Shown piece by piece: positions 44,485-64,000 of a DNA stretch of 64,000 nucleotides (the first letter of the stretch is position 1; each line of letters begins with the position of its first letter). Below the pieces are notes generated by a model, which was given only the letters and a program-made list of their open reading frames with translations, had not been told where the DNA came from and did no database searches. The DNA is from Artemia franciscana (Eukaryota > Arthropoda > Branchiopoda > Anostraca > Artemiidae). The DNA is taken from contig NC_088871.1 of assembly GCF_032884065.1 (NCBI RefSeq), positions 50,860,162-50,924,161 on the forward strand. The letters run 5' to 3'. Made by a program: the position numbers and the translations under genes.

Positions 44485-45770
44485 ATGTCTAAAATTTGTC
44501 CCTATTGCAAGGCCTTGAAATTCAATGGTGAAACAATGGGAATGTGTTGCGCCTCAGGAAAAGTTAAACTTCCTCTATTGGCTGCACCACCAGAGCCATT
44601 GAAGACTTTCCTTACTGGAACTACGTCAGAATCTAAGCGTTTTTTGTCAAAAATCAGACAATACAACTCATGTTTCCAAATGACGTCGTTTGGAGCCCAA
44701 ATCGAAAATCCAGATCAATTTATGTCTACTTTCAAAGTAAAAGGGCAAATTTATCATAAAGCAGGGTCCCTTCTACCATTCTCAGGCGAGAATCATAAAT
44801 TTTTACAATTGTACTTCATCAGTGATAGAAATTCTGAATTGAATGCACGTTGCGAAATTTCTCCCAACGTTGAAAGGACAATCGTTTCCCAATTGCAACA
44901 TCTTTTCCACGAAAATAATAAGTTAGTGCGTCTGTTCAAAACAGCCATCGATTTGATGCCTACTGATACTCATAAAATTGTTATTTCCGCTGACAAAACG
45001 CCTCCTGGCCAACATGTGCGTAGATACAATGCTCCGACTATCGACGAAGTGGCAATCTTTATGGTCGGTGATCAGTTTTTACCTCGAGATATTATTCTGC
45101 ATAAGCGAAACGCTCAGTTGTTAAGAATTGCTGAAACTCATCGATGCTACGATGCCCTACAATATCCTATCATTTTTTGGGATGGAGCCGACGGCTATCA
45201 CTTTAATATTAAATTGATGAATCCAGCCACTAACAAAGAAATTAATAAGAAATGCAGTGCAATGCATTATTATTCCTATAGACTAATGATTCGGCAGGAT
45301 GAAGAAAATTATATTTTAAAATGCCGTGAATTGTTTCACCAATTTATGGTTGATATGTATGCTAAAATTGAATCAGAACGTTTGCTATATATCCGCCTGA
45401 ATCAGACCAAGCTCCGCTCTGAACAATACATTCATTTGCGAGATGCAGTTATAAATGACGGTAATACCACAAACGTTGGAAGATTAACAATTTTACCTTC
45501 GTCATATGTTGGCAGTCCCCGTCATATGCATGAATATGCTCAAGATGCTATTGCGTATGTTCGTCTCTATGGTCGTCCAGATTTATTTAGTACATTTACA
45601 TGTAATCAATCTTGGGACGAGATACTGCAGCTTTTACTTCAAGGACAATCGGCGGTTCATAGGCATGACATTACGGCACGTGTCTTCCGGCAAAAGTTGA
45701 AATCACTGATAAACTACCTTGTAAAACATGAAGTGTTTGGGTCAGTGCGATGCTGGATGTACTCAGTGGA
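44485..45770 (+). pseudogene. Helitron Rep protein, N-terminal half (truncated before the HUH motif)
   Basis: The frame begins at SKICPYCKALKF, a Cys-type zinc element (C-x2-C...C-C), and runs through blocks found in Helitron-like N domains: RRYNAPTIDEVA, QYPIIFWDGADGYH, SAMHYYSYRLMIR, LPSSYVGSPRHM, LYGRPDLFSTFTCN and HDITARVFRQKL. It ends at CWMYSVEW, just before the place where H-A-H (HUH) should follow. There a deletion joins it, out of frame, to the helicase end. A one-base shift near 44470 separates it from the repeat ORF. Confidence 0.85.
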
Positions 45771-46048
45771 ATGGCAATCTTATTCCTCGCATTCCCATGA
45801 TTCCAACGGATCTGCTTTTTCAATTTAAAAGATTGCAATTCCCAATTCGATTAGCATTTGCAACCACCATCAACAAAGCTCAAGGGCAATCACTAGAAAA
45901 ATGCGGTATAGATCTTAATACAGATTGCTTTACCAATGTACAATTGTATGTTGCATCTTTGAGGGTCGGTAAACCTGACAATCTATTTATACGCACAGAC
46001 AATGGGACAGCGAAGACTGTTGTATATTCACAAGTTTTACGTAGTTAA
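45771..46048 (+). pseudogene. Helitron helicase C-terminal block
   Basis: It encodes IPRIPMIPTD, then FPIRLAFATTINKAQGQSLE, then GIDLNTDC and VGKPDNLFIRTDNGTAKTV, ending at a stop (46046). INKAQGQ is the last helicase motif (VI) of Pif1-type Helitron helicases. All earlier helicase motifs are gone because of the deletion at about 45770. Confidence 0.85.
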
Positions 46049-47100: not shown

Positions 47101-47869
47101 AGTTTTAATTTTTCAAATGCACATCATATTTTCTGAATATTAATGGGTCATATCATGTCCATGGATTTTCTAAAGTTAGGAAATATATTGTGAAGATATT
47201 TGAATCATAATATACTGAGATTGAGCAAAGTTGTGAAGCTGAAAAAACTTTGTCATAAAATTTAATCTAAGGATTTAAGTACCTCATTTAAGTAGAAGAT
47301 CTAGTAGCTTAAATTAGCTAAGTGGATTTAGTAAGATTTAAGTTACTAATGCAAGTTGAATGTTGTCAGATCTACAAATATGATAATTAAAATGATCAGG
47401 CAAAAGATGGACTAGTTCTGAGGGCCAAAGGAGTGCCACAATGGGGTTGAAGAAAACAAAATACACATATGAGAGAATACAAAAGGACTTATAATCAAGA
47501 AGCTGCTTATTTACAGAAATATTTGTTTCAAGGATAAGGTTCCTTGCTTTGTCATGTATCTTAGAGAGCAGTACCAGAGACAAAGAAATGTTTAACACCC
47601 ACAAAAAGTACAATAAAAGATGAATTACTGAAATAAACAAATGAATCCGAAGTTTTACAATCAAACCAGGAAAAAGTGCAAAAATTCTGAAATTCTTCAA
47701 TATGTTTATCTTAATTAGGTTAATAAAATGTACAAAGGAGCGAAACTCATAATATACCAGAACTGAATATACCAACCTCTAGGTATACTGACAGAACCCT
47801 TTGAAAGAGAGGTTTCAGATAGCAGAGAGCAAACCTAAGAAATTCCTATACTAGTGCTATGTTGAATAC
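47101..47869. other. no recognised gene
   Basis: A 145-codon minus-strand frame (47338-47775) is hydrophobic and AT-driven. No family is recognised and it may be continuous with the LINE relic, so I do not call it a gene. Confidence 0.4.
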
Positions 47870-48750
47870 TGTTACGGGGGGGGGGTCTCTTATAAAGTTT
47901 GTTCGATTTCTTATCTAGTTTTCTGATTGCTTATAAAGTTTACTTGATTTCTTATATAGTTTAAGTTGTTTGTGGTATGGGAGCTTTATAGTTAATGGAT
48001 ATAGATTGGGAGGGTTCTATTGACCAATCTCTATAACCTTGGAGACGAATTCATTATCATGACGTTTAGGTTTGCCGAGATGGGCAGATTCCCTTGGGAA
48101 CGTACCAGTAGACAATAGGAACTGTACCTGTACCTTGACTCAAAGACAAACACAATTATTGACAATAATTTTATTTTCTTACTTCATATACAACTTCAGG
48201 TAAAACGGCTCCAATAAATGATAGTAGTATAAAGTGCATCAAAGAGTGACTACCAAAAAACTGAATTACACTCCTAACTTTTAGTTCACCTTATATATCC
48301 CGAATCAACCCGGATTTCTAAATTAAGCACTGGGTAGACTGACCTCAGAAATGTTGCAACACAACTCTTTTTTTGATTATACAACATATGGCTTAACCTC
48401 CTTGCAAAGATTTATTATAACGAGGGTTTTCACCTTCAGTTTGTTGACCAGACCAGATGTAGAAATCTGGTTTCTAATTGGCTTATTCAAAAGTTTGAAT
48501 CTAATTTTGGTAGTCAAAAAAGTATCGTTTTTTGCTTGAAGGAAGATTTGTACCAAAGGTAAAAAGCATCATTTTCGCCCTGTTATAAAACTTGTACTAA
48601 AAAAGCACAAATCCTATGAGATAATTAACTTGCACTTTAAAATCTTTATATGTATAAGAGATTCTTATTTTAAAACTTTCTAAAGTAAATGAATGAGATT
48701 TGGTTTTGAGTTCTGAAAGGGGGAGGGGGTTTGCTGGTCCATATGTTACA
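47870..48750 (-). repeat. 3' LTR (left copy)
   Basis: The left boundary is set by identity with the right LTR (TGTTACGG). The right boundary is inferred at ATGTTACA, which pairs imperfectly with the other end (TGTTAC versus TGTAAC when inverted) and is followed by a polypyrimidine stretch as expected for a minus-strand element. Length is then 881 bp. Over the about 518 bases shared with the right LTR there are three substitutions and a G-run length difference. Confidence 0.8.
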
Positions 48751-50423: not shown

Positions 50424-50900
50424 TTAAATATCATCCGGGGCTGTAGGGTTTAGTTGATGCATTTCTTGAGCATCAATCGCATCGTTTTTTATCGTTTTTC
50501 GTCTCAAGAGCTTTCCATAATTTACTGTGAGTAGCGCTCTTATTGTTAGAGATATAAAAAATACCAAAAATATGGTTATTATTATATTGTACCAGGAATT
50601 TGGTGAGAATAATCCATATTGACTTTCTACGTATTTTAGTCTTTGGTCTTCAGTCGTGAACAACGGTATTTGTAGGTGAATATTTCTCTTTCTGTGCTTC
50701 CTACTAAAACATCACATGAGTTGGGAATATCTTGCTGTTGCGATTCCTTTAGGAAAAGATCTAATATGCAAGATCCGATTTTTACATTATATATAGGTAG
50801 CGCTAGTTGGCAGATTAAATTTTTAAAAGAGACGCATTCTTTTCAATCCTGTGAATTGGCTAGTGCATATTTTCTTCTGTCTTAATCAATTAGCATATAT
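50424..50900 (-). pseudogene. envelope-like protein, C-terminal part with membrane anchor
   Basis: 50424-50663 ends in a hydrophobic stretch of about 23 residues (IIITIFLVFFISLTIRALL) followed by a basic stop-transfer and a polar tail of about 30 residues, the layout of a type I envelope anchor. Upstream, in a frame shifted by one near 50655, about 45 codons with spaced cysteines (GSCILDLFLKE, SCDVLVGSTE) continue to 50850 and beyond through a TGA. The position just before the 3' end of the element is where env lies in errantivirus-like elements. The receptor-binding part is not recognised and the frame is broken. Confidence 0.5.
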
Positions 50901-51881
50901 TCTGCTTCAGGCGTATTGCTCATGAATCAATATTGTTATCAACCTATTCCTAGGAAAGTAATTTCAGTGATTAGTATAAATAAGATCCGTAGTTTGTGCC
51001 AAACCTTTATTATTCTCATATATATAGCCTTGTTGGTTACAGGGCGGTAGGCAAAATTTTCAGATGCATAGTTGCACCTGGCCTAATGCTTAAGTTACTA
51101 ATTTCTTATGGAGTAGAAATTTATTGCCCTATTTTGTTACCAAAATTTTTGATTTATGGTTTAAATTTGAATTTAGTTTAAATCCAACTACAGATGGCTT
51201 AATATAGTCTGAAGCTTAAAACGAGGGTTTGTTATTACATAACAAGATTATAAGGCCTAGTAACTTTATCTCAAAGATCACAGCTTTCTTGGTATGCACT
51301 TTGAGAAATAAATAGCACTATTGGCTGAGGGTGTCATATTGAGGTATAATGTTACCTCCGATAAGTTAGCGTTCTTTTGTATTTTTAACTCCTTCCAGCT
51401 CAAAATTGAGTAGCCTAATTGGTAAAAATAAAAAAAATTTAACCATTAATTTAAATTCGGTCGAGTTTTAGCCTAGTTTCAATGATAAAGTCGTAGGTTA
51501 TTAGTTTCTTTATATATATGGTCTTATTGTCTTATAATTGAGAAGTGATTGTATCTAAATCATTTAAGAAGAGCTAAATTATTAGAAAAAATTTCAAAAA
51601 AAAAAAAATTTTTGTTTATTATGGCCTATGGTTTAAAATAATAGCATTTTTGTTTCATTTAGGTTGTATCTATTCCGTCGAAGATTATTGGGAAACATAT
51701 GGCATTAATTTGTTTAGGTTAAAAGGAAATTAAATTAAATTACTTTATTACTATATGCACAGGTTTTTGGTGCATAGTGTAGTTTTGTGTAGTGTAAACA
51801 CAAATTTATTAAAAAATCTAATTTTTGCAGCGCATTTGATTTTAGTCTTATGCGGCACATAGCGCAGCGCGTAGTGGCGCA
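50901..51881 (-). other. probable decayed upstream part of the envelope-like ORF
   Basis: Short minus-strand open stretches are separated by stops. I cannot identify motifs or decide whether it was ever one frame. Confidence 0.3.
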
Positions 51882-52231: not shown

Positions 52232-53097
52232 TAGATTTTGATCCTTGACTGTATATATAAATATTTTGTATGGTCACGTTTAATTATCAGATACAATTCT
52301 TAGATATGAATATTAGATTCTTTAGATGAATCTAAAGAAATCTTAGATATGACATAGCGTAAGTTTTTTATTCTTATTCTGATTTAAATTTTTGTTTTTT
52401 AATTTTACCCTTTATTATCTCGCCATAAAGTAGAATTTAGTTTTTTAAGGTACACTGAATTATCTCGTGGGGGGGGGGGGTTTGTGGAAGGTTTTATTTA
52501 TTTACGTCATGACATTCCACCTTGTTATAGAAGTGGCTATTTTGCTCATATTTATAGGTCTTTTTTGGATTCTGAAATAATTAGGAATATTCTATTTTAC
52601 TGTTTATCGCAAGAGTCGTTAAATTTATTTATTTATATATATATATATATATTTTTTTTTTAAAAGGGTATGCAGGAACTATGGTTAATTTATTTGCTTA
52701 GATTTTGATCCTTGACTGTATATATAAATATTTTGTATGGTCACGTTTAATTATCAGATACAATTCTTAGATATGAATATTAGATTCTTTAGATGAATCT
52801 AAAGAAATCTTAGATATGACAGCGTCAGTTTTTTATTCTTATTCTGATTTAAATTTTTGTTTTTTAATTTTACCCTTTATTATCTCGCCATAAAGTAGAA
52901 TTTAGTTTTTTAAGGTACACTGAATTATCTCGTGGGGGGGGGGGGTTGTGGAAGGTTTTATTTATTTACGTCATGACATTCCACCTTGTTATAGAAGTGG
53001 CTATTTTGCTCATATTTATAGGTCTTTTTTGGATTCTGAAATAATTAGGAATATTCTATTTTACTGTTTATCGCAAGAGTCGTTAAATTTATTTATT

Positions 53098-53128
<31 letters not shown>

Positions 53129-53164
53129 AGGGTATGCAGGAACTATGGTTAATTTATTTGCTTA
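52232..53164. repeat. 467-bp tandem duplication inside the LTR element
   Basis: 52232-52698 and 52699-53164 are almost identical, including a G-run, the word TATCTCGCCATAAAGTAG and a TATATA run. Differences are limited to a few bases and run lengths. The unit is not protein-coding on the minus strand. An inverted word (TTAGATTCTTTAGATGAATC) in each unit can form a small hairpin. Confidence 0.95.
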
Positions 53165-53438: not shown

Positions 53439-53744
53439 TTAGTTTTCTTTTCTTATCTTGCGTGTAAATGAACAAAATAACAAGATGAACAAAATCCTTG
53501 TTATTAACTTATTAGTGATGCTTACGGGAATTTCGAGAAGGAGGTAGAGAGTTTGGTATTGTAATTCTCTTGTTGCCTTCTTAACGGAATTTTCTAAATC
53601 TTGGTCTAATAATTTGTGTTCAATTTTTGACAAATTTGGCAAACTTTGGGTTTTACAAGGTAACCAAGCTGTTCGGTTTTTCAGGTATCTAGTGGGAGTT
53701 TTTATGGTTCTAGTTTTTATATCAAAACTTTCCCCATTCCTCAA
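53439..53744 (-). CDS. partial paralogue of the SOCS-box ORF (N-terminal part only)
   Basis: The 101 codons carry KTQSLPNLS, then a helical block (D-L-E-N-S-V-K-K-A-T-R-E-L-Q-Y-Q-T-L) and LLLEIP. In the SOCS-box ORF upstream the same order occurs: KTQSLPNLS, then E-S-A-I-T-N-A-V-R-N-L-E-Y-N-T-L, then LLQVP. The frame stops at 53439 without the middle part and the SOCS box. It indicates an old duplication of the accessory gene followed by truncation, or a short product kept in its own right. Confidence 0.6.
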   Translation of the reverse strand: MRNGESFDIKTRTIKTPTRYLKNRTAWLPCKTQSLPNLSKIEHKLLDQDLENSVKKATRELQYQTLYLLLEIPVSITNKLITRILFILLFCSFTRKIRKEN

Positions 53745-53953
53745 CTTGGTAAGGTTGGGATAACTTAGGGTTCATTTTAATGGCATGATATTTCTTTTTC
53801 AATTTTTGTTAGTTATAAGCAGGTTAGTTAGCTAATTGGCGGTTATCTTGACACTGGTTTCTTCTAGAATCACGTATGACGTGTGTATTAAGGTATTGAT
53901 TTCTATTTGTTGCCAACCAAATTTTTCTTTTATTTTAAACAGTTCTTCCTTGT

Positions 53954-55048
53954 CTACAAATTAGAAAAATTACATAAAGGGGGAGGAGAAAAAAGGGTAA
54001 AGGGTAAAAGAGGACCGTCAATTTCATAATTTTCCGTAATTCTCAAAATTGAGCCACTATTGGCCAGTAAATTGTACTCTGACTTTAAAAGGTAGGGGGT
54101 TTTGAATGTTAATTGGAAGTCCTTGTCGGTGATCTCGGGGCCGTTTTCCATGTACATTATATATTTCTTCAGGAAAGTGGGAATTTGGAGGCTTCGTATG
54201 GAATAATTAATGTCCCTTTTCCTTAATATTTGCCGTATTTGTTTCCTGCATAGATCTTTTAGACTGAATTTATTTGAGGTCGTGTGAATTATTTTATAAA
54301 TCAATTCCTTACGGAAGCATAGCGGGCTAGCTATGTCTAGGAATCTTTCATACACAATGATGTCTTTATCTGGCAAAATTTTTGATCCAAAATTTTCATC
54401 ATTCAAGTAGAATTTTATTGTCACGTTTCTTAACTCCATATATTGTTCATCATAAATATTATGGGTTGAATTTCTTACGGTTATTGGGTCAAAATTGGCA
54501 TTGTACCATAAATAGTTTTCATATATTCCCAACAATATATTTTCATTTTCCACTATTTTGTAATTCAAATCTAGTAGTAATTCCAGAAACTTTAAGGAAC
54601 ATAGTATTTTGAAACCTGATTCAAAATACTGCGTGTGCCAAAAATTTTCGCGTATTAAAGATGCTATTAAAGGATACATAGCGGGGGGCATTGCTTTGAG
54701 TAGGGCTGCGAAGGTGTATGAAGCATTTTTATGCCTATAATCGTAATCTTTGCTCAATATATCTAGCGAAAAAGAACCGTATAATAGGATTATCATTCCG
54801 TGTATAACGAAATCCTGTTTAAGAATGAGGGGAACTTGTAATAAAGAGCTTAAGGTATTATATTCTAAGTTTCTTACTGCATTAGTTATTGCGGATTCAA
54901 GGATTGTTTCACGTTATTCATAATCTATTACTGAGAGGTTTGGTAAACTTTGAGTTTTATTTGAAATCCAAAATACTGGTCTCGCAAATCTCAGGTCTTG
55001 GTTGGGTTCTAAGGTATCGGTATTACTTAAGGTTCTTCGTCGCGACAT
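53954..55048 (-). CDS. accessory ORF ending in a SOCS box (one in-frame stop)
   Basis: From ATG 55048 the frame is open for 364 codons except for TAA at 54914-54916; without that, translation could start at 54796. The N-terminal two thirds looks helical with leucine pairs (FLELLLDLNYKIV) and may be degenerate ankyrin-type repeats. At 54150-54266 it reads SLKDLCRKQI, an exact (S/T/P)-L-x3-C-x3-(I/L/V/A) Elongin-BC box, then IRSLQIPTFLKKYI, which fits a Cullin-5 box. Such boxes recruit Elongin B/C and Cullin-5 to ubiquitinate a target bound by the N-terminal part, as in ASB and SOCS proteins. About 50 residues follow the box. The target is unknown. Confidence 0.65.
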
Positions 55049-55159: not shown

Positions 55160-55766
55160 TTATTGTTTGAATTTTTTTGTTTTTAATTTACCTTTAAATG
55201 CGTCTTTTTTTGCTTCTACCGATTTTTTTCTCTTTAAGAAAATGTTATTTCCCCTTACCGCGTATTCTTGGGACGTTGGATCATACATAAATTTGGCGTA
55301 ATGTCGGATTTCATCTAGAGGGTGGTGAATTCATTCGTACTTAATACAATTTTAATTTTTTTTCGATCTTATAACGAATTTTAGGTGGCCTACATTTATC
55401 AATTAAAAGTAGATTAGTTTGATTTGGGCCCTTGCAAAACCAATAGCTTATATTAAATTTTTGTTGTAATTTTCTTATTAATAGTTGAAGGCTTGTCAAG
55501 TTTTTTCCTTTCTTGCTTTTATTTGAATATTTTATTTTTACTTCTCCTCTTGCTGGTTGATATTTAGGGGTATTCGCTAATTTTAAGCCAAATCTATATG
55601 TATGAGGTTCAAATTTTGTTAAATCGTAATTGAGGTACCATGTTTCAGCATACACCTCTTTACCATCATTATCTTGAACTAAGATGGCGGCCACGTATAT
55701 AATGTTTTCCTTGGCATGGATAATTGAAATAAATTCTGTATCTATAATTCCCTTTATCATAGTCAA
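55160..55766 (-). pseudogene. accessory ORF with 3'-5' exonuclease-like features
   Basis: It begins at ATG 55766 with IIDTEFISI, then a strand-rich region with YVAAILV, resembling the D-x-E start (motif I) of DEDD exonucleases. Later comes YWFCKGPNQTN. The frame ends at 55341 in a poly(A) run. In another frame, after a stop, HHPLDEIRHYAKFMYD and about 35 residues continue to 55160, a possible last motif with a conserved His. A DEDDh fold is my inference and the middle Asp was not identified. It lies between pol and the SOCS-box ORF. Confidence 0.35.
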
Positions 55767-57123
55767 ATAATATTTTTAAAAAAATATTTAAGTGCGATCT
55801 TGATACCGCAGGGAGGATAAAGTAGATTTGATGCCAAGTATGAATGTCTGTCAGATATTGCAAGTTATGGCTATATTAATGTCGTTTTTTAGCTATGAGT
55901 TAAATTTATTTGAAGTTACTAAATTTATATGATAGTAGGGAGACGAACCAAGAATATGCCTGAAAGGAGTATGACAATTATAAAGTAAATTTGAACAAGT
56001 TTGGCTATGACTACAATTTACGAAGACGCTTGTTGTCACCTGACTATTTGTAATAATTTTTTTTTTTATTAAGGTTACTAATGAGTTTTAATTTACTATT
56101 ATTTGATGGTTGTCTGTATAAGCTTTATGTTTTGTAATATTTTAGTTTTTACGGTAGATAAGGGGACAGCGATTCCTATAGGGCAGGTGTTAGTTATAGT
56201 TGTGTTAATAAGCTTTTGCTTTAAAGAATTATTATTATAGTAATAAATTAGTTTTGGGATCTATCACAATACTGAGCCCTTTTTGATGGAGAAGGCCAAT
56301 TTTTCAATCGGAGTTTATCAAACTTTTCTGAAAGGTATCCTTTTTTATTTATGGATTCTTATTACGGAGTGGTCACTTGGCGAGGAGCAAAAAAAATTAA
56401 GTCAACTTTCTTTGAGTCATAACCCGACGCTATCAATAAATACATCGAGCTAAGCCCCAAAAAAAATTGAATCAACTCTCTATTAATCATAACTCAATTT
56501 TATCAACAAATAATTATTTTTCTTATACCCTAGGATGATGTTTGCCTATTAACAGTCAACTAAAAAACTTCTGGTTTTCTTTGTATTCTTGATTTTGTAG
56601 TAGTCCTGAAGCGTTGATTCCTGGTCGTTATTCTGGTATTGTTTTACGTGTATATTAAATATTTCTTTAAACTTCTGGGGAGTTGGAGATTATCAAGGGT
56701 ACGGAGAATATTTATTTTTCGAAATAATAGTTAAGCATTAGGAGCTGTTTTTCCAACCCATCTAGCGTTATGTGGCTCTAGCCGCTAACGTTAGTTTATC
56801 GGATCAATTCGTAATAAGAAAATGGCAATAAGGAAATTATGGATGACAAACTGGGACACGTTTGTTTCTCGATTACGAATATACAATACTCACACATTTT
56901 TTTTTTGTGCGACTACCAACTATTGGCTCACAGGGAATTTTGGATTATAACTTAATTTAGTTTGTTCACTTTTTCACTGGTTGTAACACTGAAGAAGTAG
57001 CTTCAAGGAGTCCTCTCAAATAATTACGGAATGGTTTCTTAGCGAAACCAATTAACGATTAGTAAAAAAAAATGACTATTTTATATTTTTTTTCATTTTA
57101 CACAAGGCTGATAGATTCTTTTA
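55767..57123. other. non-coding spacer in the LTR element
   Basis: About 1.35 kb with no frame over 60 codons that looks real. It may contain splice or promoter signals for the downstream ORFs. Two short similar segments near 56390-56420 and 56460-56490 (AAAAAAATTRAGTCAACT-like) are present. Confidence 0.45.
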
Positions 57124-58527
57124 TTAAAAATCTAATTTATCTGGTTTTTTGACAACCCGGCCGGATCTTGTTGTTACCTGTTCTTCTTTAGGCTCAGTTT
57201 TTTTCTTTGGTTTTGCTAATGATATTAAGTCAAATTTTTTATACTGTTTTTTCAGAAATTTTTGACCTTTTAATTGTGCTTTTTTTGCCTGGGCCGCTGC
57301 ACTGGGGGGTTTCATTTCTTTTGATTCCTTGAACTTATCTGCGTCAGATTCACTATCCGTATCTGAGGAACTAGTACTTGTTGATTTATCGCCTGGTTCT
57401 TTTGAAGAAGAAGAAGTTTGAGACTTTGGCGTTGATCCTGCTTGTGCTTCATAAATTTCTTCTCCTCGCGAAGTAGAGGGTCTACTAATAGATTCGTCCT
57501 GTTGATTTCTGGGCTCGGGAGAATTGAAGGATTCTTGAGAGCTTTGGGAAGATTCAAATGTCTTCTTGGGGTACCTCCATTGCTTGAAAGCCATGTCTTC
57601 CGGGGGGTGAGGAATTGTTTGCATTAAGGTTTCCTTCCAAGATACCCAGTCCTTTGGTTTTGCCTTTGAGACGGTTATATTGTGATACTGTTGTTCATCA
57701 GTAGGTGGATTAGTATAAAATGTACTCTGTCTAGTCTTAATGGGGTAATTAATGATATCCATTGCTTCTCTCAATGTTTGTTTTTGGGGTTGATTGTCCC
57801 TTTGTGACTCTATGTCCCCAGGAGTCTGTATAGCCTTATTTAATTCATCGTGTAACGATAAGGGTCTGTCTATTGGTGAAATAGGTTTCACCAAATTGTC
57901 GGGGAAACGTTTTGGGGGGTAAGGGGTTGAAATTTTATCTGGAAAAAATTGTGACTTTGCAGAAATCGTATAGTCCAATGGTTCTGACTCCTCACTGGAA
58001 GATGAGTCGCCCTTTTTCCGTCTCTGCGTGACGGGGGTACTTTTTGGGGGGAGTAACCATATTCGTCATGGTTAGAAATTCATTAAATTTTTCTTCGTCA
58101 CTACTGTTTTCAAAATACCCTTGTTTAAAATTAAAAGGTTTAAGCTCACTTAGTCTAGAGCGAGGTGGTTCATTTTCGTCCTCCGAGGTATTTGATGTTG
58201 AAGGTTGAGGGGTCCATGTTTCTGTGAATTTTGCCCTTTTTATACGACTAACATGGGTTTTATAGGTTTTTCCCGTTTGTGGTTTTAATAGTTTGAATGT
58301 AACGTCATTATCATATTTCTTAATTATTCTATAAGGGCCAGCGTACCTATTAGAAAGCTTCTTGCCTTCCAATTTGGTTTCATTTTTTAAATAAACGCAA
58401 TCTCCTACTTGAAAATTGAGTTCTCCTTTAACATTTGGGATATTTTTGGCCTCTTGTTGTCTTTTTGAATTTTCTATTTCTTGTTTTACAAGTTTGTAAG
58501 TTTTCTTGCCTATAATCTCGAGAATCA
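57124..58527 (-). CDS. pol C-terminus: integrase GPY/F region and long disordered tail (frameshifted)
   Basis: The first part (58140-58500) has VGDCVYLKN and RYAGPYRIIKKY, the GPY/F module that follows the integrase core. A Ser/Pro/Glu-rich tail follows, interrupted by a one-base shift in a C/A run near 58035. After it the frame continues for 285 codons from 57978. The end, TTRSGRVVKKPDKLDF, is the type of basic C-terminus seen in many gypsy pol proteins. The tail of about 350 residues is much longer than usual. A further one-base shift near 58515 separates this part from the integrase core. Confidence 0.75.
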
Positions 58528-59600
58528 TTATAATATTGCCTCGATTCTATAATTTCCTTATAAGGGATTCTAAAGTCTCGTCCGAATAATATGTAGAATG
58601 GGTTATCACGAATGACCTGGGAGTAAGCGGTATTAATTAGATTTGTTAAATAAGGTAAGGTTTCGTGCCAATCTCTGCGAAATTCTTTCGTATAAATGCT
58701 TAAAATATTAGAGAATAGTTTGTGTCTGTTCTCGATCTTCCCGTTGGCCTGGGGGTGATAGGGGGTCGATACCAATTTACTTATTTGAAGAAAAGACATT
58801 AAATCCTTAGTTACTTTCGATACGAAATTAGGGCCGTTATCGCTTAATACTGTATTAGGAATACCAAAATTAAGGAATATTTTAGCGAGAGCTTTCGACG
58901 TTGTATAGGCGCTTTGATTTTTTAATGGTTTAGCAAAAGTGAAACCAGAAAAGTGATCTATCACTGATAGTACACAGGTGTGTCCTTCATTAGACATGGG
59001 TAGTCCTCCGCTAGTACCATATAAATCAAAAGAAACTATATCAAAGGGGAACCGGGCCGTAGGCGTTCTTCCTGTCCCTGGATTAGGGTAGACTTGAGGA
59101 TTTTTTCTTAAATTACATGTCTCACAACTATTAACGTAATTTTTTAACTTTGTTAAGGCTGAAGCAACGAAATAGTATTGTTTTAATCTATGGGAGGTCT
59201 TCTCTATTCCCAAGTGACCTCCTACTTCAGAATGAAAAAATTCAAAAGCGGGTTTTTCCAAAATTTGGGGTAACACTGGTATAATGGTCGTTTGATTTCT
59301 TTTATCGTTATCGGTCATTATTTTACATAGTATGTGTTCATCTAAATCGTAATAATAATTATCAATTTCTTTTTTAAAGGATTTCATTTCATTTGGTAGG
59401 TCTCTATCATATAAGAAATATTCTATTAGAGCAGCACAAATATTATCTTTCTTTTGATGTATTTTTATATTATTTAAAGATAGTGGGCTGTCTTTGTGTT
59501 CTTCTTCTACCAAATTATTGGTCTGCATTTTTAAATTTTTATTTTTCGGAGCATGTTTTTCTTTTATCGTGTTAATTTCTTCATTTTCATTTTCTAAGGG
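58428..59600 (-). CDS. pol: integrase
   Basis: The zinc-binding HHCC module reads HSEVGGHLGIEK ... SCETCNLR. The catalytic core has FDIVSFDLYG (first Asp), LSDNGPNFVS (second Asp) and PYHPQANGKIEN (Glu of the D,D-35-E triad). All key residues are present. It inserts the double-stranded DNA copy into the host genome. The order RT - RNase H - integrase classes the element as Ty3/gypsy. The frame shifts after YYNDSRDY at about 58515. Confidence 0.9.
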   Translation of the reverse strand, partial: PLENENEEINTIKEKHAPKNKNLKMQTNNLVEEEHKDSPLSLNNIKIHQKKDNICAALIEYFLYDRDLPNEMKSFKKEIDNYYYDLDEHILCKIMTDNDKRNQTTIIPVLPQILEKPAFEFFHSEVGGHLGIEKTSHRLKQYYFVASALTKLKNYVNSCETCNLRKNPQVYPNPGTGRTPTARFPFDIVSFDLYGTSGGLPMSNEGHTCVLSVIDHFSGFTFAKPLKNQSAYTTSKALAKIFLNFGIPNTVLSDNGPNFVSKVTKDLMSFLQISKLVSTPYHPQANGKIENRHKLFSNILSIYTKEFRRDWHETLPYLTNLINTAYSQVIRDNPFYILFGRDFRIPYKEIIESRQYYNDSRDYRQENLQTCKTRNRKFKKTTRGQKYPKC

Positions 59601-60775
59601 AGCATTATCTGGAAACCTACTAAGATAGTCGCATGGGGCGTTTTGTTTTCCTTTAAGATGTTCAAATTCATAATCTAAATCTTGAATTTTTAATAACCAT
59701 ATCGCGAGGATTCCGGACGGTTTTTTGAAAGTCTGTAGGTATTGAAGACTTTTATGATCGGAACATAGTTTAAATTTTCGTCCAACCAAGTAATGTTTAA
59801 ATTTTTCTAAATGGTGGATAATCGATAATAATTCAAGTTGTGTCGCAGAATAATTACTTTCTCCAGGTGTAAGAGTACACGAAGCATATGCTATAACTTT
59901 TTCTTCCCCGTTTATTATTTGGGAGAGAATCGCCCCAATCCCCTTGGTTGAGGCATCCGTAGTAACAACGAATTGTCCTGTTTAGAAGTCGGGTAAACAT
60001 AAGATAGGTTCTGAAGTCAAAGCCTTTTTTAAATGATCTAATGAATTTTGAGCTAATTTAGACCACGTGATTTTTTGGGGGTTCCCTCTAGTGAGGTCCG
60101 TGAGAGGTTTTGCTACTTGTGCGTAATTTCTTATAAATTTTCGAAAGTAGCTCATTAATCCTAAGATTCCTCGTAATTGTTTAATTGTTTGAGGGGGTTT
60201 TATATTTTTAAATGATTCTATCTTTTCAGGGTCTGGGGAAATTTGTCCTTGTGTTACAACTACTCCTAAAAATTTTAGTTTGGTTTGAAAAAGATTTACT
60301 TTTTCAGGTCTACATTTTAAATTGCCTTCTCTAAATTTCTCAAACACATTTGCTAGGGTCATCAGATGGCCTTCCGTATCTTTGTCCATGGCTATGACGT
60401 CATCAACAAAATGAATTATGTTATTTAGACCTCTTAATAAATGAAGGAGGGGTCTACACAATGCACTTGAACTGGTTTTTAGTCCAAATGGTACTCTTAA
60501 GTATTCATAAGAACCACATTCTGATGTTGAAAAAGCTGTTTTAAAAATATCGGCCCCTTTTATTTTTACTTGATGATAACCTTGTGTCAAATCTAGGGAA
60601 GTAAATATTTTATTTTTATTTGATATTGAGTCTAGAATTTCGTCTATTCTAGGTAGGGGAAATTTGTCACTTACTACCTGTTTATTTAAAGCTCTATAAT
60701 CTACCACTAATCTAAGGTCATTATTCTTTTTCGGGACTAAAATAACGGGGGCAGAGTATGGGCTTATGCTTGGCC
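59600..60775 (-). CDS. pol: reverse transcriptase and RNase H (one in-frame stop)
   Basis: The RT shows VVDYRALNKQ, FTSLDLTQGYHQV (first catalytic Asp), VPFGLK, and HFVDDVIAM (catalytic Asp pair in F-V-D-D form), then KFLGVVV and GLMSYFRKFI. Directly after LPDF there is TAA at 59982-59984. The same frame continues at once into RNase H, with V-T-T-D-A-S-T-K-G-I-G-A, YSATQLELLSI and CSDHKSLQYL. One nonsense change therefore separates an otherwise intact RT-RNase H. The protein copies the genomic RNA into DNA in the particle. Confidence 0.9.
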
Positions 60776-61990
60776 TTATGATTTGATTTTTTCAAGTTCA
60801 TGTATTTTGTTTATTAGCCATTCTTTATGTTTATAAGGAATTCTGTATGGTTGTTTTGCAACTGGCGGCCCCGTGGTTTGTATTGCGTGTTCATAAAATG
60901 GGATAAGTCCTATGTCGTCTTCAGATGTCGAAAAGACATCTTTATATTCCCATAATAAGTCACATAATTTTTGTTTTAATGATACATCGGTTATGTGACT
61001 TAGTTCGAATTTTTCAAGAAATTGGGATCGCGTCAGTGGATATTCTTTGTCAACGTGAACATTGATATTATTCACTAAGTTTTTTTCCAATTTTTTCCAA
61101 TTATTAATATCGGATTCCGATACTATTTGTATCTCTACTAAACATGTACCTTTTCTTAGGGTAATTAGGTTGTTTTCGTGGGTGTTCGTTACCCAAATAT
61201 AACCTTCATCCTTTTCGTAATTTATAATTTGTTCTTCGCAAACTGCATTTTTCGGGAGATCTTCCGACGGCGATGCTACCCAAATTTCATTTTTATCATT
61301 AACTGGTTCTAACATTTGTGACATTTGGACCCTCTGCATTGATTTAGGGGGAATTTTAGTTTTTCTCACTACGAATCCATAATATTTTTCGTTATGACTT
61401 TCTTTTATTGAGTTTAGGATATTATCTTCTGGTTTTTTTCTGGGAGTTTCTATATTCGCTAGTATTTTCCATAAATATGAAATTTCTTGAATTTGTTTTT
61501 CTCTATACTCTTCCATGTGGCCTATGTTTTCCTTTACCTTGTTTGCTTGTATGTTATTTATTTCTGATTTGGTTTTTGTCGGATATATAAACTTTGAATT
61601 TGCTACATCTAATAATATTTTATTGGCTTTTAAAAAGTTAGCGCCTATTATCGCTTCGTATGGAAAATTTTTACAAACTATAAATCGAGTATAGAAATTT
61701 CTGTCATCTTTGCGCAAGGTTAGGTACACAGTGCCTTTTACATCCAGGTCGTGTCCCGTCACACTTGATAAATTGGGACATATATTGCTCATTCGTCGTT
61801 TAATATAATTGGGTAATTTGTTAAATACGGATGTATTTATCACATTTACTGTTGCCCCTGAATCTATAAGGGCTGAGAAATAAATATTTCCTGCATTAAA
61901 ATTTTCAAATACTGGTAACATATTATTATTATTTGCACTTAAAAATGGTATAATCACTGGCAGGGACCTATATATTATTTTGCCACCAAA
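60776..61990 (-). CDS. pol: aspartic protease and RT N-terminus (frameshift at the end)
   Basis: FSALIDSGATVNVIN is the retropepsin active site (D-S-G), and AIIGANFL is the later protease motif. A linker of about 200 residues leads to the start of the RT (QPYRIPYKHKEWL). The frame ends at a stop just after an A run (six T on the plus strand, 60787-60792) where one base appears to be missing; the RT proper continues in the next frame. The protease frame is -1 relative to gag and overlaps it by about 65 nt (61999-62065), so expression as Gag-Pol by -1 frameshifting is likely. I see no clear canonical slippery heptamer. Confidence 0.85.
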   Translation of the reverse strand, partial: FGGKIIYRSLPVIIPFLSANNNNMLPVFENFNAGNIYFSALIDSGATVNVINTSVFNKLPNYIKRRMSNICPNLSSVTGHDLDVKGTVYLTLRKDDRNFYTRFIVCKNFPYEAIIGANFLKANKILLDVANSKFIYPTKTKSEINNIQANKVKENIGHMEEYREKQIQEISYLWKILANIETPRKKPEDNILNSIKESHNEKYYGFVVRKTKIPPKSMQRVQMSQMLEPVNDKNEIWVASPSEDLPKNAVCEEQIINYEKDEGYIWVTNTHENNLITLRKGTCLVEIQIVSESDINNWKKLEKNLVNNINVHVDKEYPLTRSQFLEKFELSHITDVSLKQKLCDLLWEYKDVFSTSEDDIGLIPFYEHAIQTTGPPVAKQPYRIPYKHKEWLINKIHELEKIKS

Positions 61991-61998
61991 TTTTGGTC

Positions 61999-63186
61999 CT
62001 ATGAATTTTGGGGGCTTGAGTCGTTTCCCTGGGGTTCCCAGATTTCGGGTGTAGAGTTTTCATTAGTTCTATTTTGGTTTTCTTGATCATTAATTGAAGT
62101 TGAGTTGTTATATGGGTTCCGTCGGCTGATAAAGTTACCTCTTGTATTTCTATTCCAACCATTGTTAGGTTGGTTTGTCCTTCCGCGATACTGATTCGTA
62201 CTGCGTTGGAAATTTCGGGTTGGATAATTACCTCTTGTTAAAAAGGTGTTCCCTCGATTGCCTCTAGGGGCGTACCCATTATAGTTTGTCCCCCTGGACA
62301 AATGGTTGCTCGATCCCCTAAAATTCGGGCGATAATTATTGTTTGTAAAACAATTTCTTGCGATGTGACCTAACCGGTTACAGGTGTAGCACCTTAGTGG
62401 TTCGCCATTGGCTTGTGCCAATAACGAACCACCAAGGTTCGAACCACTAAGATTATTGGGGGCAAAGCGTACTTGTCTCGGAGGTGTGGTGGTTCGAACT
62501 TGATTTCGAAGCGGTTTAGGCGATGATTCTCTAGAGAAAAATCGCGGAGAGGGATCTCTTGATTTTATAGCTGTTTTACTTTCTACCGCATTTATTGATA
62601 GTTTTTGATGCTGCAGGACTATGGAATCAATTTCCACGGCTGTCTCTATCTCCTGAACTGCCAGTTCTAAGTCGTCGATTTTTTTGGAAATTAAGAGACG
62701 ATACAGTTTTGGGTTGAGTCCCTGTTTAAATGCGTTTAGTATTATTTTTTCATACAATTCCCCTTCACCAGGACCGTATCGCGCTTCTGTTGCGATTCTA
62801 ATTTTATTTAAATATTCTCTTACGTTCTGGGTCTGTTCGAATTTTACTAACCCATGTTTTAGTTTGTTCAATGAACTAGTATCGATAAATCTTTTTTGAA
62901 AAGCCTGTTGCAATAACTTTATTGAGTTAATTGTTGAGGTGGTTTCAGTTCCTACGATATTTTCAATTTGTTTCAAAAATGTCAGAGCCTGTCCTTTTAG
63001 TCTTAAGAGTAGCATGTTTTTTAATGCATTTAAGTCAATTTTTGTCATTTCAACAAATTGTCCTAAATGGATGTTGAATTGATCTACATCTGTATCCCCT
63101 TCATAATCAGGTAATGATTTTGCAATTTCTACCGAAGTTGCAATAATTTGTTGCGCTTTTAATAATTCATCTTGTTCCTGAGCCAT
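61999..63186 (-). CDS. gag polyprotein
   Basis: A 395-codon intact ORF. The N-terminal about 210 residues are helical capsid-like sequence (FNIHLGQFVEM, EYLNKIRIATEARYGPG). One zinc knuckle, CYTCNRLGHIARNC (C-x2-C-x4-H-x4-C), lies near residue 275, followed by an Arg/Gly/Asn-rich tail of about 120 residues typical of nucleocapsid RNA binding. The protein forms the particle and packages RNA. The ATG at 63186 is the first in frame, about 280 bp from the primer-binding site. It is the only large ORF of the element without a break. Confidence 0.9.
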   Translation of the reverse strand: MAQEQDELLKAQQIIATSVEIAKSLPDYEGDTDVDQFNIHLGQFVEMTKIDLNALKNMLLLRLKGQALTFLKQIENIVGTETTSTINSIKLLQQAFQKRFIDTSSLNKLKHGLVKFEQTQNVREYLNKIRIATEARYGPGEGELYEKIILNAFKQGLNPKLYRLLISKKIDDLELAVQEIETAVEIDSIVLQHQKLSINAVESKTAIKSRDPSPRFFSRESSPKPLRNQVRTTTPPRQVRFAPNNLSGSNLGGSLLAQANGEPLRCYTCNRLGHIARNCFTNNNYRPNFRGSSNHLSRGTNYNGYAPRGNRGNTFLTRGNYPTRNFQRSTNQYRGRTNQPNNGWNRNTRGNFISRRNPYNNSTSINDQENQNRTNENSTPEIWEPQGNDSSPQNS

Positions 63187-63462
63187 ATTTGTTATTTTAA
63201 TTCATTTTTTTTTTCTTGAAGTTATGCGGCATATAAAATTTTATTTTTCATTTAACATTTATTTATATTTAACTACTGAAGATTTTAATTATTTTAAGAT
63301 GGGGTACACACAAAAAATACATAAGTAGAAGTAAAATTATACTATACTTAAATAATGTAAAATTAAATGCACTAAAAATAAAAAAATAATTTGTGAATAA
63401 TCAAATTTGTCTAGGGTAGCAGGTAGTCATGTTGTTAGACATATACAGTTCCTTCAGTGTCT

Positions 63463-63482: not shown

Positions 63483-64000
63483 TGTTACGGGGGGGTTTCT
63501 TATAAAGTTTGTTCGATTTCTTATCTAGTTTTCTGATTGCTTATAAAGTTTACTTGATTTCTTATATAGTTTAAGTTGTTTGTGGTATGGGAGCTTTATA
63601 GTTAATGGATATAGATTGGGAGGGTTCTATTGACCAGTCTCTATAACCTTGGAGACGAATTCATTATCATGACGTTTAGGTTTGCCGAGATGGGCAGATT
63701 CCCTTGGGAACGTACCAGTAGACAATAGGAACTGTACCTGTACCTTGACTCAAAGACAAACACAATTATTGACAATAATTTTATTTTCTTACTTCATATA
63801 CAACTTCAGGTAAAACGGCTCCAATAAATGATAGTAGTATAAAGTGCATCAAAGAGTGACTACCAAAAAACTGAATTACACTCCTAACTTTTAGTTCACC
63901 TTATATATCCCGAATCAACCCAGATTTCTAAATTAAGCACTGGGTAGACTGACCTCAGAAATGTTGCAACACAACTCTTTTTTTGATTATACAACATATG
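63483..64000 (-). repeat. 5' LTR (right copy, cut by the window edge)
   Basis: It begins TGTTACGG and matches the left LTR to the end of the window (64000 corresponds to 48390). Differences: three substitutions (near 63496, 63637 and 63922) and seven instead of ten G in the first run. It should continue for about 360 bp beyond the window. Confidence 0.9.

Follow-up and report, generated by a model that had tools for sequence, protein, structure and literature searches.

The brine shrimp Artemia franciscana carries a family of Ty3/Gypsy-type long terminal repeat (LTR) retroelements in which genes for proteins with a SOCS box stand between pol and an envelope-like region. We describe one copy of this element, nearly all of which lies in a 64,000-nucleotide stretch of contig NC_088871.1 (the window, from whose first letter positions are counted), together with its relatives elsewhere in the genome. 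The available part of PMC4812663 describes the SOCS box as a module that links a substrate with Elongin B/C, Cullin 5 and Rbx2, and that is made of a BC box followed by a Cul5 box. In the Artemia family such a box is recognized by a domain profile, its motifs are almost unchanged from copy to copy, and the gene that encodes it stands at a regular distance from gag within a cassette of further genes. We think it probable that the SOCS proteins serve the element as accessory Elongin-BC/Cullin-5 substrate receptors directed against host factors; the family would then be a case of an LTR retroelement whose accessory genes seem shaped to exploit a Cullin-5 ligase, in hosts where this is new and among unexpected companion genes.

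The SOCS-box gene, its copies and its conservation

The SOCS gene of the window belongs to what we call type A, and its parts are as follows.

53954..55048, minus strand: type A SOCS gene of 364 codons and a final stop, broken by a stop at codon 45 (54914-54916)
54158..54268, minus strand: SOCS box (Pfam PF07525, E 3.4e-8)
54236..54265, minus strand: BC box SLKDLCRKQI, in agreement with the BC-box consensus given in the available part of PMC13342108
54158..54190, minus strand: core of the Cul5 box, LQIPTFLKKYI, read from the sequence

An earlier note on this DNA had claimed both boxes for a single open reading frame (ORF) spanning the gene. The boxes are there, on the minus strand: SLKDLCRKQI is followed by IRSLQIPTFLKKYI, which holds the Cul5 box, and residues 216-252 of the open piece score 34 bits with Pfam SOCS_box (E 3.4e-8), above its cut-off of 23.5. 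The gene is likewise present, but not as one open frame, its open piece of 319 residues running from 54913 to 53957. The closest protein, P0001 (LOC136028777 of Artemia franciscana), is 82% identical over its full length, and protein searches with the SOCS protein gave 7, later 23, relatives. A combined BC and Cul5 pattern, composed after the sequence had been seen, has a single match in all six frames of the window, and 50 first-order Markov resamples contain none. By itself, the BC pattern is uninformative (83 matches in the window, 78 expected). Set against the consensus phi-xx-LP-phi-P-xx-phi-xxx-phi, the type A Cul5 box (L-Q-I-P-T-F-L-K-K-Y-I) keeps one proline and has an incomplete LP-phi-P.

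The box is recognized by Pfam alone, since sequence searches of the PDB with the SOCS piece, the box and two alignments gave nothing significant (single chains at E 1.9 and E 1). PHROGs and NCBIfam yielded no match for the SOCS protein. An IMG/VR scan with type A returned no pattern match, and with the type D protein and the AKAP7-like protein described below, 3 and 4 stretches respectively fitted a pattern, none encoding a relative.

We searched the Artemia franciscana assembly (1.27 Gb, 6468 contigs) with the open piece and with gag, scoring 125 of 791 first-look candidates for the former and 105 of 814 for the latter, so that the counts are lower bounds. There are at least 127 genomic matches to the SOCS piece and at least 106 to gag, 105 of the 106 gag rows being used in the analysis of neighbours. 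A gag gene on the same strand lies within 20 kb upstream of 64 of the 127 listed SOCS matches (about 0.1 expected by simple arithmetic), at a median distance of 6.8 kb and, for 58 of these 64, at 6.4-7.5 kb. Because of this regular placement, we regard the SOCS gene as a standing part of the element family. The gag of the SOCS-bearing subfamilies is 80-100% identical to that of the window, and one gag protein and one SOCS protein, each from a contig of length 34890, probably come from a single contig.

The earlier note had proposed a search for other copies to learn whether the box is conserved and under purifying selection; the outcome favours the note, with the gene and the box retained elsewhere in the genome. 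The matched stretch is free of stops in 21 of the 30 best copies (L001-L030), including that of the window, whose stop lies just before it. Among 12 representatives, the ratio of nonsynonymous to synonymous substitution rates (dN/dS) is 0.19-0.66 in 66 of 66 pairs, and at most 0.46 in 65 of them. Six pairs tested further gave Fisher p values of 1e-13 to 2e-7, against dN/dS of 0.62-1.56 in the shifted frames of the same pairs, where p fell below 0.05 in one control of 12. These ratios point to purifying selection on the SOCS gene. Within the box, the 30 best copies all retain L218, C222 and I226 of the BC box and L242, I244, P245, L248 and Y251 of the Cul5 box, with S217 kept in 28 and I252 in 29. 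The ten positions of both motifs show 3 departures in 300 cells, as compared with 113 in 960 for the 32 other box positions; no p-value is attached to the comparison because the 30 copies are related.

SOCS types, companion genes and the element around them

The family encodes four divergent types of SOCS protein, A, B, D and E, and several copies hold two such genes. SOCS_box is matched at E 3.4e-8 by type A, 2.2e-6 by D, 6.2e-4 by B (from P0009) and 1.2e-3 by E. Ten type A loci had their ORFs displayed; type B (P0009, P0010 and L018:2625-3731) comes after A in 8 of these, 3 of them with a full ORF of 368 residues. Type D (L031:223-1257) accounts for 25 of the 127 listed SOCS rows, at 44-47% identity, and for the 14 of these rows that have a listed gag the distance is 6.5-7.1 kb, which puts D in the slot that A occupies in other copies; its Cul5 box reads L-A-L-P-E-T-L-K-R-Y-L. 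Type E (L042:3618-4604 and L069:2632-3618) follows a gene resembling ANGEL2, and in L042, the sole D-type copy read far enough, env comes next. A type E query matches only the type A gene in the window.

When one member per type is compared, mean identity across the six type pairs is 0.45 for the box, 0.40 for the stretch before it, 0.35 for the N-terminal part (range 27-46%) and 0.29 for the tail. All eight aligned sequences share two BC-box residues (Leu and Cys) and three Cul5-box residues (Pro, Leu and Tyr). Two loci are unusual in their arrangement. L034 (C7:29592000-29596400) has two near-identical type D genes with a copy of the 197-residue ORF described below between them, which looks like a recent tandem duplication. 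L031 (C3:4729700-4734900) has type D, an AKAP7-like gene and type A on one strand within 4.4 kb, with one gag 7 kb upstream, and is either a composite copy or two adjacent insertions.

Beyond the box, RAD24_helical (E 3.4) is the sole further Pfam family listed for the open piece. The significant SOCS_box match answers one half of the profile check that the earlier note had proposed; the other half, an ankyrin profile, came out empty, none being listed for the SOCS proteins scanned, including at E up to 10, 1 or 0.01 depending on the scan (HMMER filters remove most matches above about 0.1, even with an E limit of 10). SPRY and WD40 were not listed in these Pfam scans either. We therefore place the proteins neither in the ASB family (ankyrin repeats plus SOCS box) nor, as the central SH2 domain was not matched, in the CIS/SOCS family proper. 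A similarity of several SOCS proteins to Sprouty (E 0.014 to 0.19, below cut-off) was taken as noise. A first structure model, from 8 sequences, was poor, with a mean predicted local distance difference test score (pLDDT) of 37.3; a second, from 19 sequences, reached a mean of 53.1 and a predicted template modelling score of 0.55. In the second model residues 43-181 of P0001 form a helical region with block pLDDT means of 53-87. Foldseek searches of the PDB and BFVD gave no match at E <= 0.001, several top rows being designed proteins and helical repeats. With low confidence, we take the N-terminal part to be a helical, perhaps solenoid-like domain.

The SOCS genes belong to a cassette. In related copies the order between pol and env is an ORF of 197-199 residues, one or two SOCS genes and an AKAP7-like gene, with an ANGEL2-like gene added in D-type copies. 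The corresponding remains in the window are these.

55163..55760, minus strand: broken accessory ORF, 199 residues where open (L018:651-1250); tblastn
53442..53786, minus strand: truncated type B SOCS gene, reduced to its first 115 codons, with a stop at codon 5 and no SOCS-box part; 91% identical to P0009 residues 1-115
52232..53164, no strand: tandem duplication of about 465 bp, repeats D3-D5, after the truncated type B gene
56566..56781, minus strand: decayed fragment like the SOCS-box end of the family (weak), stops inside; tblastn

The ORF that precedes the SOCS genes is conserved and has no Pfam family above cut-off. Its window copy is 92.5% identical to the 199-residue form over 134 residues and then 82% over 73 residues in another frame. 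The DTEF at its start and an HHPLDE stretch lend it a faint resemblance to DEDDh exonucleases, which no library supports. The decayed fragment between pol and this ORF is possibly a relic of a further SOCS gene: its best E is 7.9e-5 uncorrected and 0.002-0.008 with composition correction, at 31-50% identity.

The AKAP7-like gene adjoining type D (L031:1554-2183, 209 residues) matches AKAP7_NLS at E 1.6e-37, and AKAP7 is the best solved relative of its product (E 8.1e-24); the gene that follows B in A-type copies (L041:282-914) matches at E 4.9e-37. With 150 of 334 candidates scored, at least 150 genomic places hold an AKAP7-like gene. A SOCS match lies within 8 kb upstream in 80 of the 150 places listed; conversely, 81 of the 127 listed SOCS matches have an AKAP7-like gene within 8 kb downstream, and 48 have both this gene and gag. 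Both H-x-T motifs occur in 17 of 18 AKAP7-like copies, most of them chosen for open frames, and dN/dS, computable for 9 of 11 pairs, ranges from 0.14 to 0.54 (one close pair not significant). The AKAP7_NLS match and the two H-x-[ST] motifs together place the companion among AKAP7-type 2H phosphodiesterases, for which cleavage of 2',5'-linked oligoadenylate would be the predicted activity. On contig C3608 (246451-314530) there are at least 10 AKAP7-like matches and a single SOCS match, reflecting either nested elements or an amplified gene.

The ANGEL2-like ORF of D-type copies (L068:1398-2516 and L069:1340-2458) has 372 residues and is broken into two in L042. In L069 it matches Exo_endo_phos at E 7.4e-16, and its best solved relative is ANGEL2 (E 7.8e-60), above CNOT6L and PDE12. 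ANGEL2 acts on 2',3'-cyclic phosphates. Searches of the window with the AKAP7-like and ANGEL2-like proteins gave no match to either, and the tandem duplication of the window occupies the site that in related copies holds the remainder of type B and the AKAP7-like gene.

The element that carries this cassette is about 16.5 kb long and has the following remaining features in the window.

47870..48750, minus strand: 3' LTR, 881 bp; left LTR, TG...CA ends
63483..64000, minus strand: 5' LTR, 878 bp in full; extends 360 bases past the window
47866..47869, no strand: target-site duplication ATAC, 4 bp, left side; a second ATAC abuts the other LTR
61999..63201, minus strand: stop-to-stop gag ORF containing a single CCHC zinc knuckle; Pfam zf-CCHC and Retrotrans_gag
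57124..62059, minus strand: pol region in several ORFs, with protease, reverse transcriptase, RNase H, integrase and C-terminal tail; Pfam
50678..50923, minus strand: env remnant, Baculo_F-like part; 78% identical to L041:6223-6501
50424..50711, minus strand: ORF with a hydrophobic stretch, taken by us from its sequence as the env membrane anchor

The LTRs align over 881 columns with 8 mismatches and a single gap of 3 bases, giving 98.75% identity. In gag, zf-CCHC is matched above cut-off (E 3.4e-5, 24.2 bits against 20.8) and Retrotrans_gag below it (E 2.2e-4); in pol the matches are RVT_1 (E 2.5e-26), RT_RNaseH (1.5e-30), Integrase_H2C2 (1.1e-12), rve (3e-11) and, below cut-off, the protease family RVP (0.0014). 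The order of protease, reverse transcriptase, RNase H and integrase, the LTRs and the short target-site duplication identify the element as Ty3/Gypsy (Metaviridae), the protease match being below cut-off. The element type and the position of the SOCS gene between pol and an envelope-like region, both recognized in the earlier note, accordingly stand, the env remnant lying downstream of the gene. We call that region env because of its position in the element and because of sub-cut-off matches to Baculo_F (E 2.3e-5 for L041:6223-6501, just below the cut-off, and 1.1e-3 for a neighbouring L041 ORF); in Pfam scans the longer ORFs L041:3965-5593 (543 residues) and L042:4745-6499 (585 residues) matched no env family, and the putative anchor ORF had no informative match. 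As a whole the window copy is broken, with one in-frame stop in type A, a truncated second SOCS gene and a decayed env. At 45725-46048 the window has another ORF, whose sequence may resemble the end of a Helitron-type PIF1-like helicase.

Proposed function and its alternatives

In the mechanism that we propose, the N-terminal, apparently helical domain would bind a host protein and present it for ubiquitination, and the SOCS box, which lies towards the C-terminus, would draw in Elongin B/C and Cullin 5 of the host, leading to degradation of the bound protein. Duplication of the gene and its diversification into types A, B, D and E would be expected if the targets differ or move. The cassette as a whole would most likely counter host defence, in the manner of Vif and of the AKAP7-type enzymes captured by exogenous viruses. 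That related copies have AKAP7-like and ANGEL2-like genes beside the SOCS genes makes a role as host antagonist more likely, and a counter-defence cassette is, we infer, the simplest joint reading of the three kinds of gene; it suggests that the element has evolved tools to disarm its host. A fuller picture can be entertained only tentatively: an enveloped, complex, gypsy-type retrovirus lineage in brine shrimp, equipped with Vif-like degraders of four types and with two nucleotide-cleaving enzymes, one AKAP7-like and one ANGEL2-like.

Several results weigh against substrate receptors of this kind. No known substrate-binding domain was recognized beside the box, and the Cul5 box, which reads L-x-I-P-x-x-L, has no second proline of LP-phi-P. 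Types B and E fall below the Pfam cut-off for SOCS_box. The box is the best-conserved stretch in only 4 of the 6 type pairs, with a tie in A-B and a lower value in A-D. The structure model is weak, and in it the helices of the box (262-276 and 290-298) have pLDDT below 50. Within type A, the pooled ratio of nonsynonymous to synonymous polymorphism (pN/pS), from 13 copies below 97% identity, is 0.61 for the 42-codon box as compared with 0.36 for the whole gene, the changes in the box falling on non-motif positions. Finally, 63 of the 127 listed SOCS matches have no listed gag nearby; these may represent short contigs, decayed copies, or gag genes outside the scored set.

Of the other explanations, the one that survives best grants the Cullin-5 ligase but gives it a different object, namely the element's own proteins, or host proteins useful to its life cycle, in place of a defence factor. 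No result singles out a substrate, and the conserved N-terminal domain could bind an element protein; we nevertheless hold this to be unlikely, since an arms race accounts better than self-regulation for four divergent types that are accompanied by AKAP7-like and ANGEL2-like genes. Less plausible again is that the box has persisted from a host SOCS-box gene captured by the element and is now only part of the fold of a protein that works by binding alone. The pooled pN/pS of the box within type A and the sub-cut-off scores of B and E would suit such a history; against them stand the mean identity between types, which is highest in the box, and motif positions that are nearly unchanged in 30 copies.

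That the gene is a host gene caught by chance in one or a few copies is very improbable, and largely contradicted, even though the SOCS box is a cellular domain: 64 of 127 listed matches lie downstream of same-strand gag, 58 of them at 6.4-7.5 kb, and gag and a SOCS protein probably share one contig. Chance resemblance in a drifting ORF can be dismissed, common as BC-box patterns alone are (83 against 78 expected), in view of the Pfam E of 3.4e-8, the key residues kept in four types, and dN/dS below 1 in 66 of 66 pairs against 0.62-1.56 in shifted frames.

If the fuller picture of an enveloped retrovirus lineage is true, retroelements would be restricted in a crustacean by a protein factor that it pays the element to destroy, and also by an RNA signal, 2',5' or cyclic-phosphate, that is worth erasing. 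The AKAP7-like and ANGEL2-like genes point to a nucleotide-signal defence, for which the papers listed in our literature searches (mostly without subscription journals) showed no such antagonist in this animal group. The SOCS proteins would also be handles on arthropod restriction factors, any protein bound by them being a candidate.

Comparison with known systems

Apart from lentiviral Vif, the papers listed in the same searches showed no SOCS-box or AKAP7-like gene in a retroelement, and none described this Artemia element. In general build the element shares with errantiviruses such as gypsy its LTRs, gag, pol domain order and 4-bp target-site duplication, with a possible further likeness in env pieces that resemble Baculo_F below cut-off, and differs from them in its length of about 16.5 kb, its multi-gene accessory cassette and the CCHC knuckle of its gag. 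Several errantiviruses have a gag without CCHC, according to the available part of PMC2774666, which also mentions additional genes in Tat-clade Ty3/Gypsy elements. The absence of a CCHC array, taken as a mark of errantiviruses, does not hold for the window gag, with its zf-CCHC match above cut-off.

Cellular SOCS-box proteins (CIS/SOCS, ASB, SPSB and WSB) have a BC box followed by a Cul5 box, as do the Artemia proteins; the latter are unlike them in being encoded by a retroelement, in many copies, and in having no SH2, ankyrin, SPRY or WD40 domain listed by Pfam. The AKAP7-like companion has a counterpart in the enzymes captured by nidoviruses and rotaviruses, which antagonize OAS-RNase L and for which the available part of PMC10835031 gives the same features, AKAP7_NLS and two H-x-T motifs. 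In Artemia the gene belongs to a gypsy-type crustacean element and its activity is predicted; the words retrovirus, retrotransposon, arthropod and invertebrate are absent from the main text of PMC10835031.

Nearest in design is MGF505 of African swine fever virus, like the Artemia SOCS genes a multigene family. The available part of PMC13342108 describes for its member MGF505-1R a motif resembling a SOCS/VHL box, recruitment of Elongin B together with Cullin 5, and a damping of innate signalling. As far as that part goes, the MGF505 motif is N-terminal, ankyrin repeats are predicted and the carrier is a DNA virus, whereas in Artemia the box lies towards the C-terminus, no ankyrin is listed and the carrier is a retroelement.

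Nearest in logic is Vif of HIV-1 and its relatives, which also belongs to an LTR retroelement as an accessory protein and has a motif resembling the SOCS box. The vif gene stands between pol and env. Its product recruits Elongin B/C and Cullin 5 for the degradation of APOBEC3 proteins, as described in the available part of PMC4812663. The likeness would be one of mode of action and not of membership. The boxes of Artemia types A and D score above the Pfam cut-off, the element is of Ty3/Gypsy type and crustacean, and it has four types of the protein. Should the Artemia proteins act as we propose, they would represent an independent origin of the Vif strategy, outside vertebrates, in a crustacean gypsy-type element.
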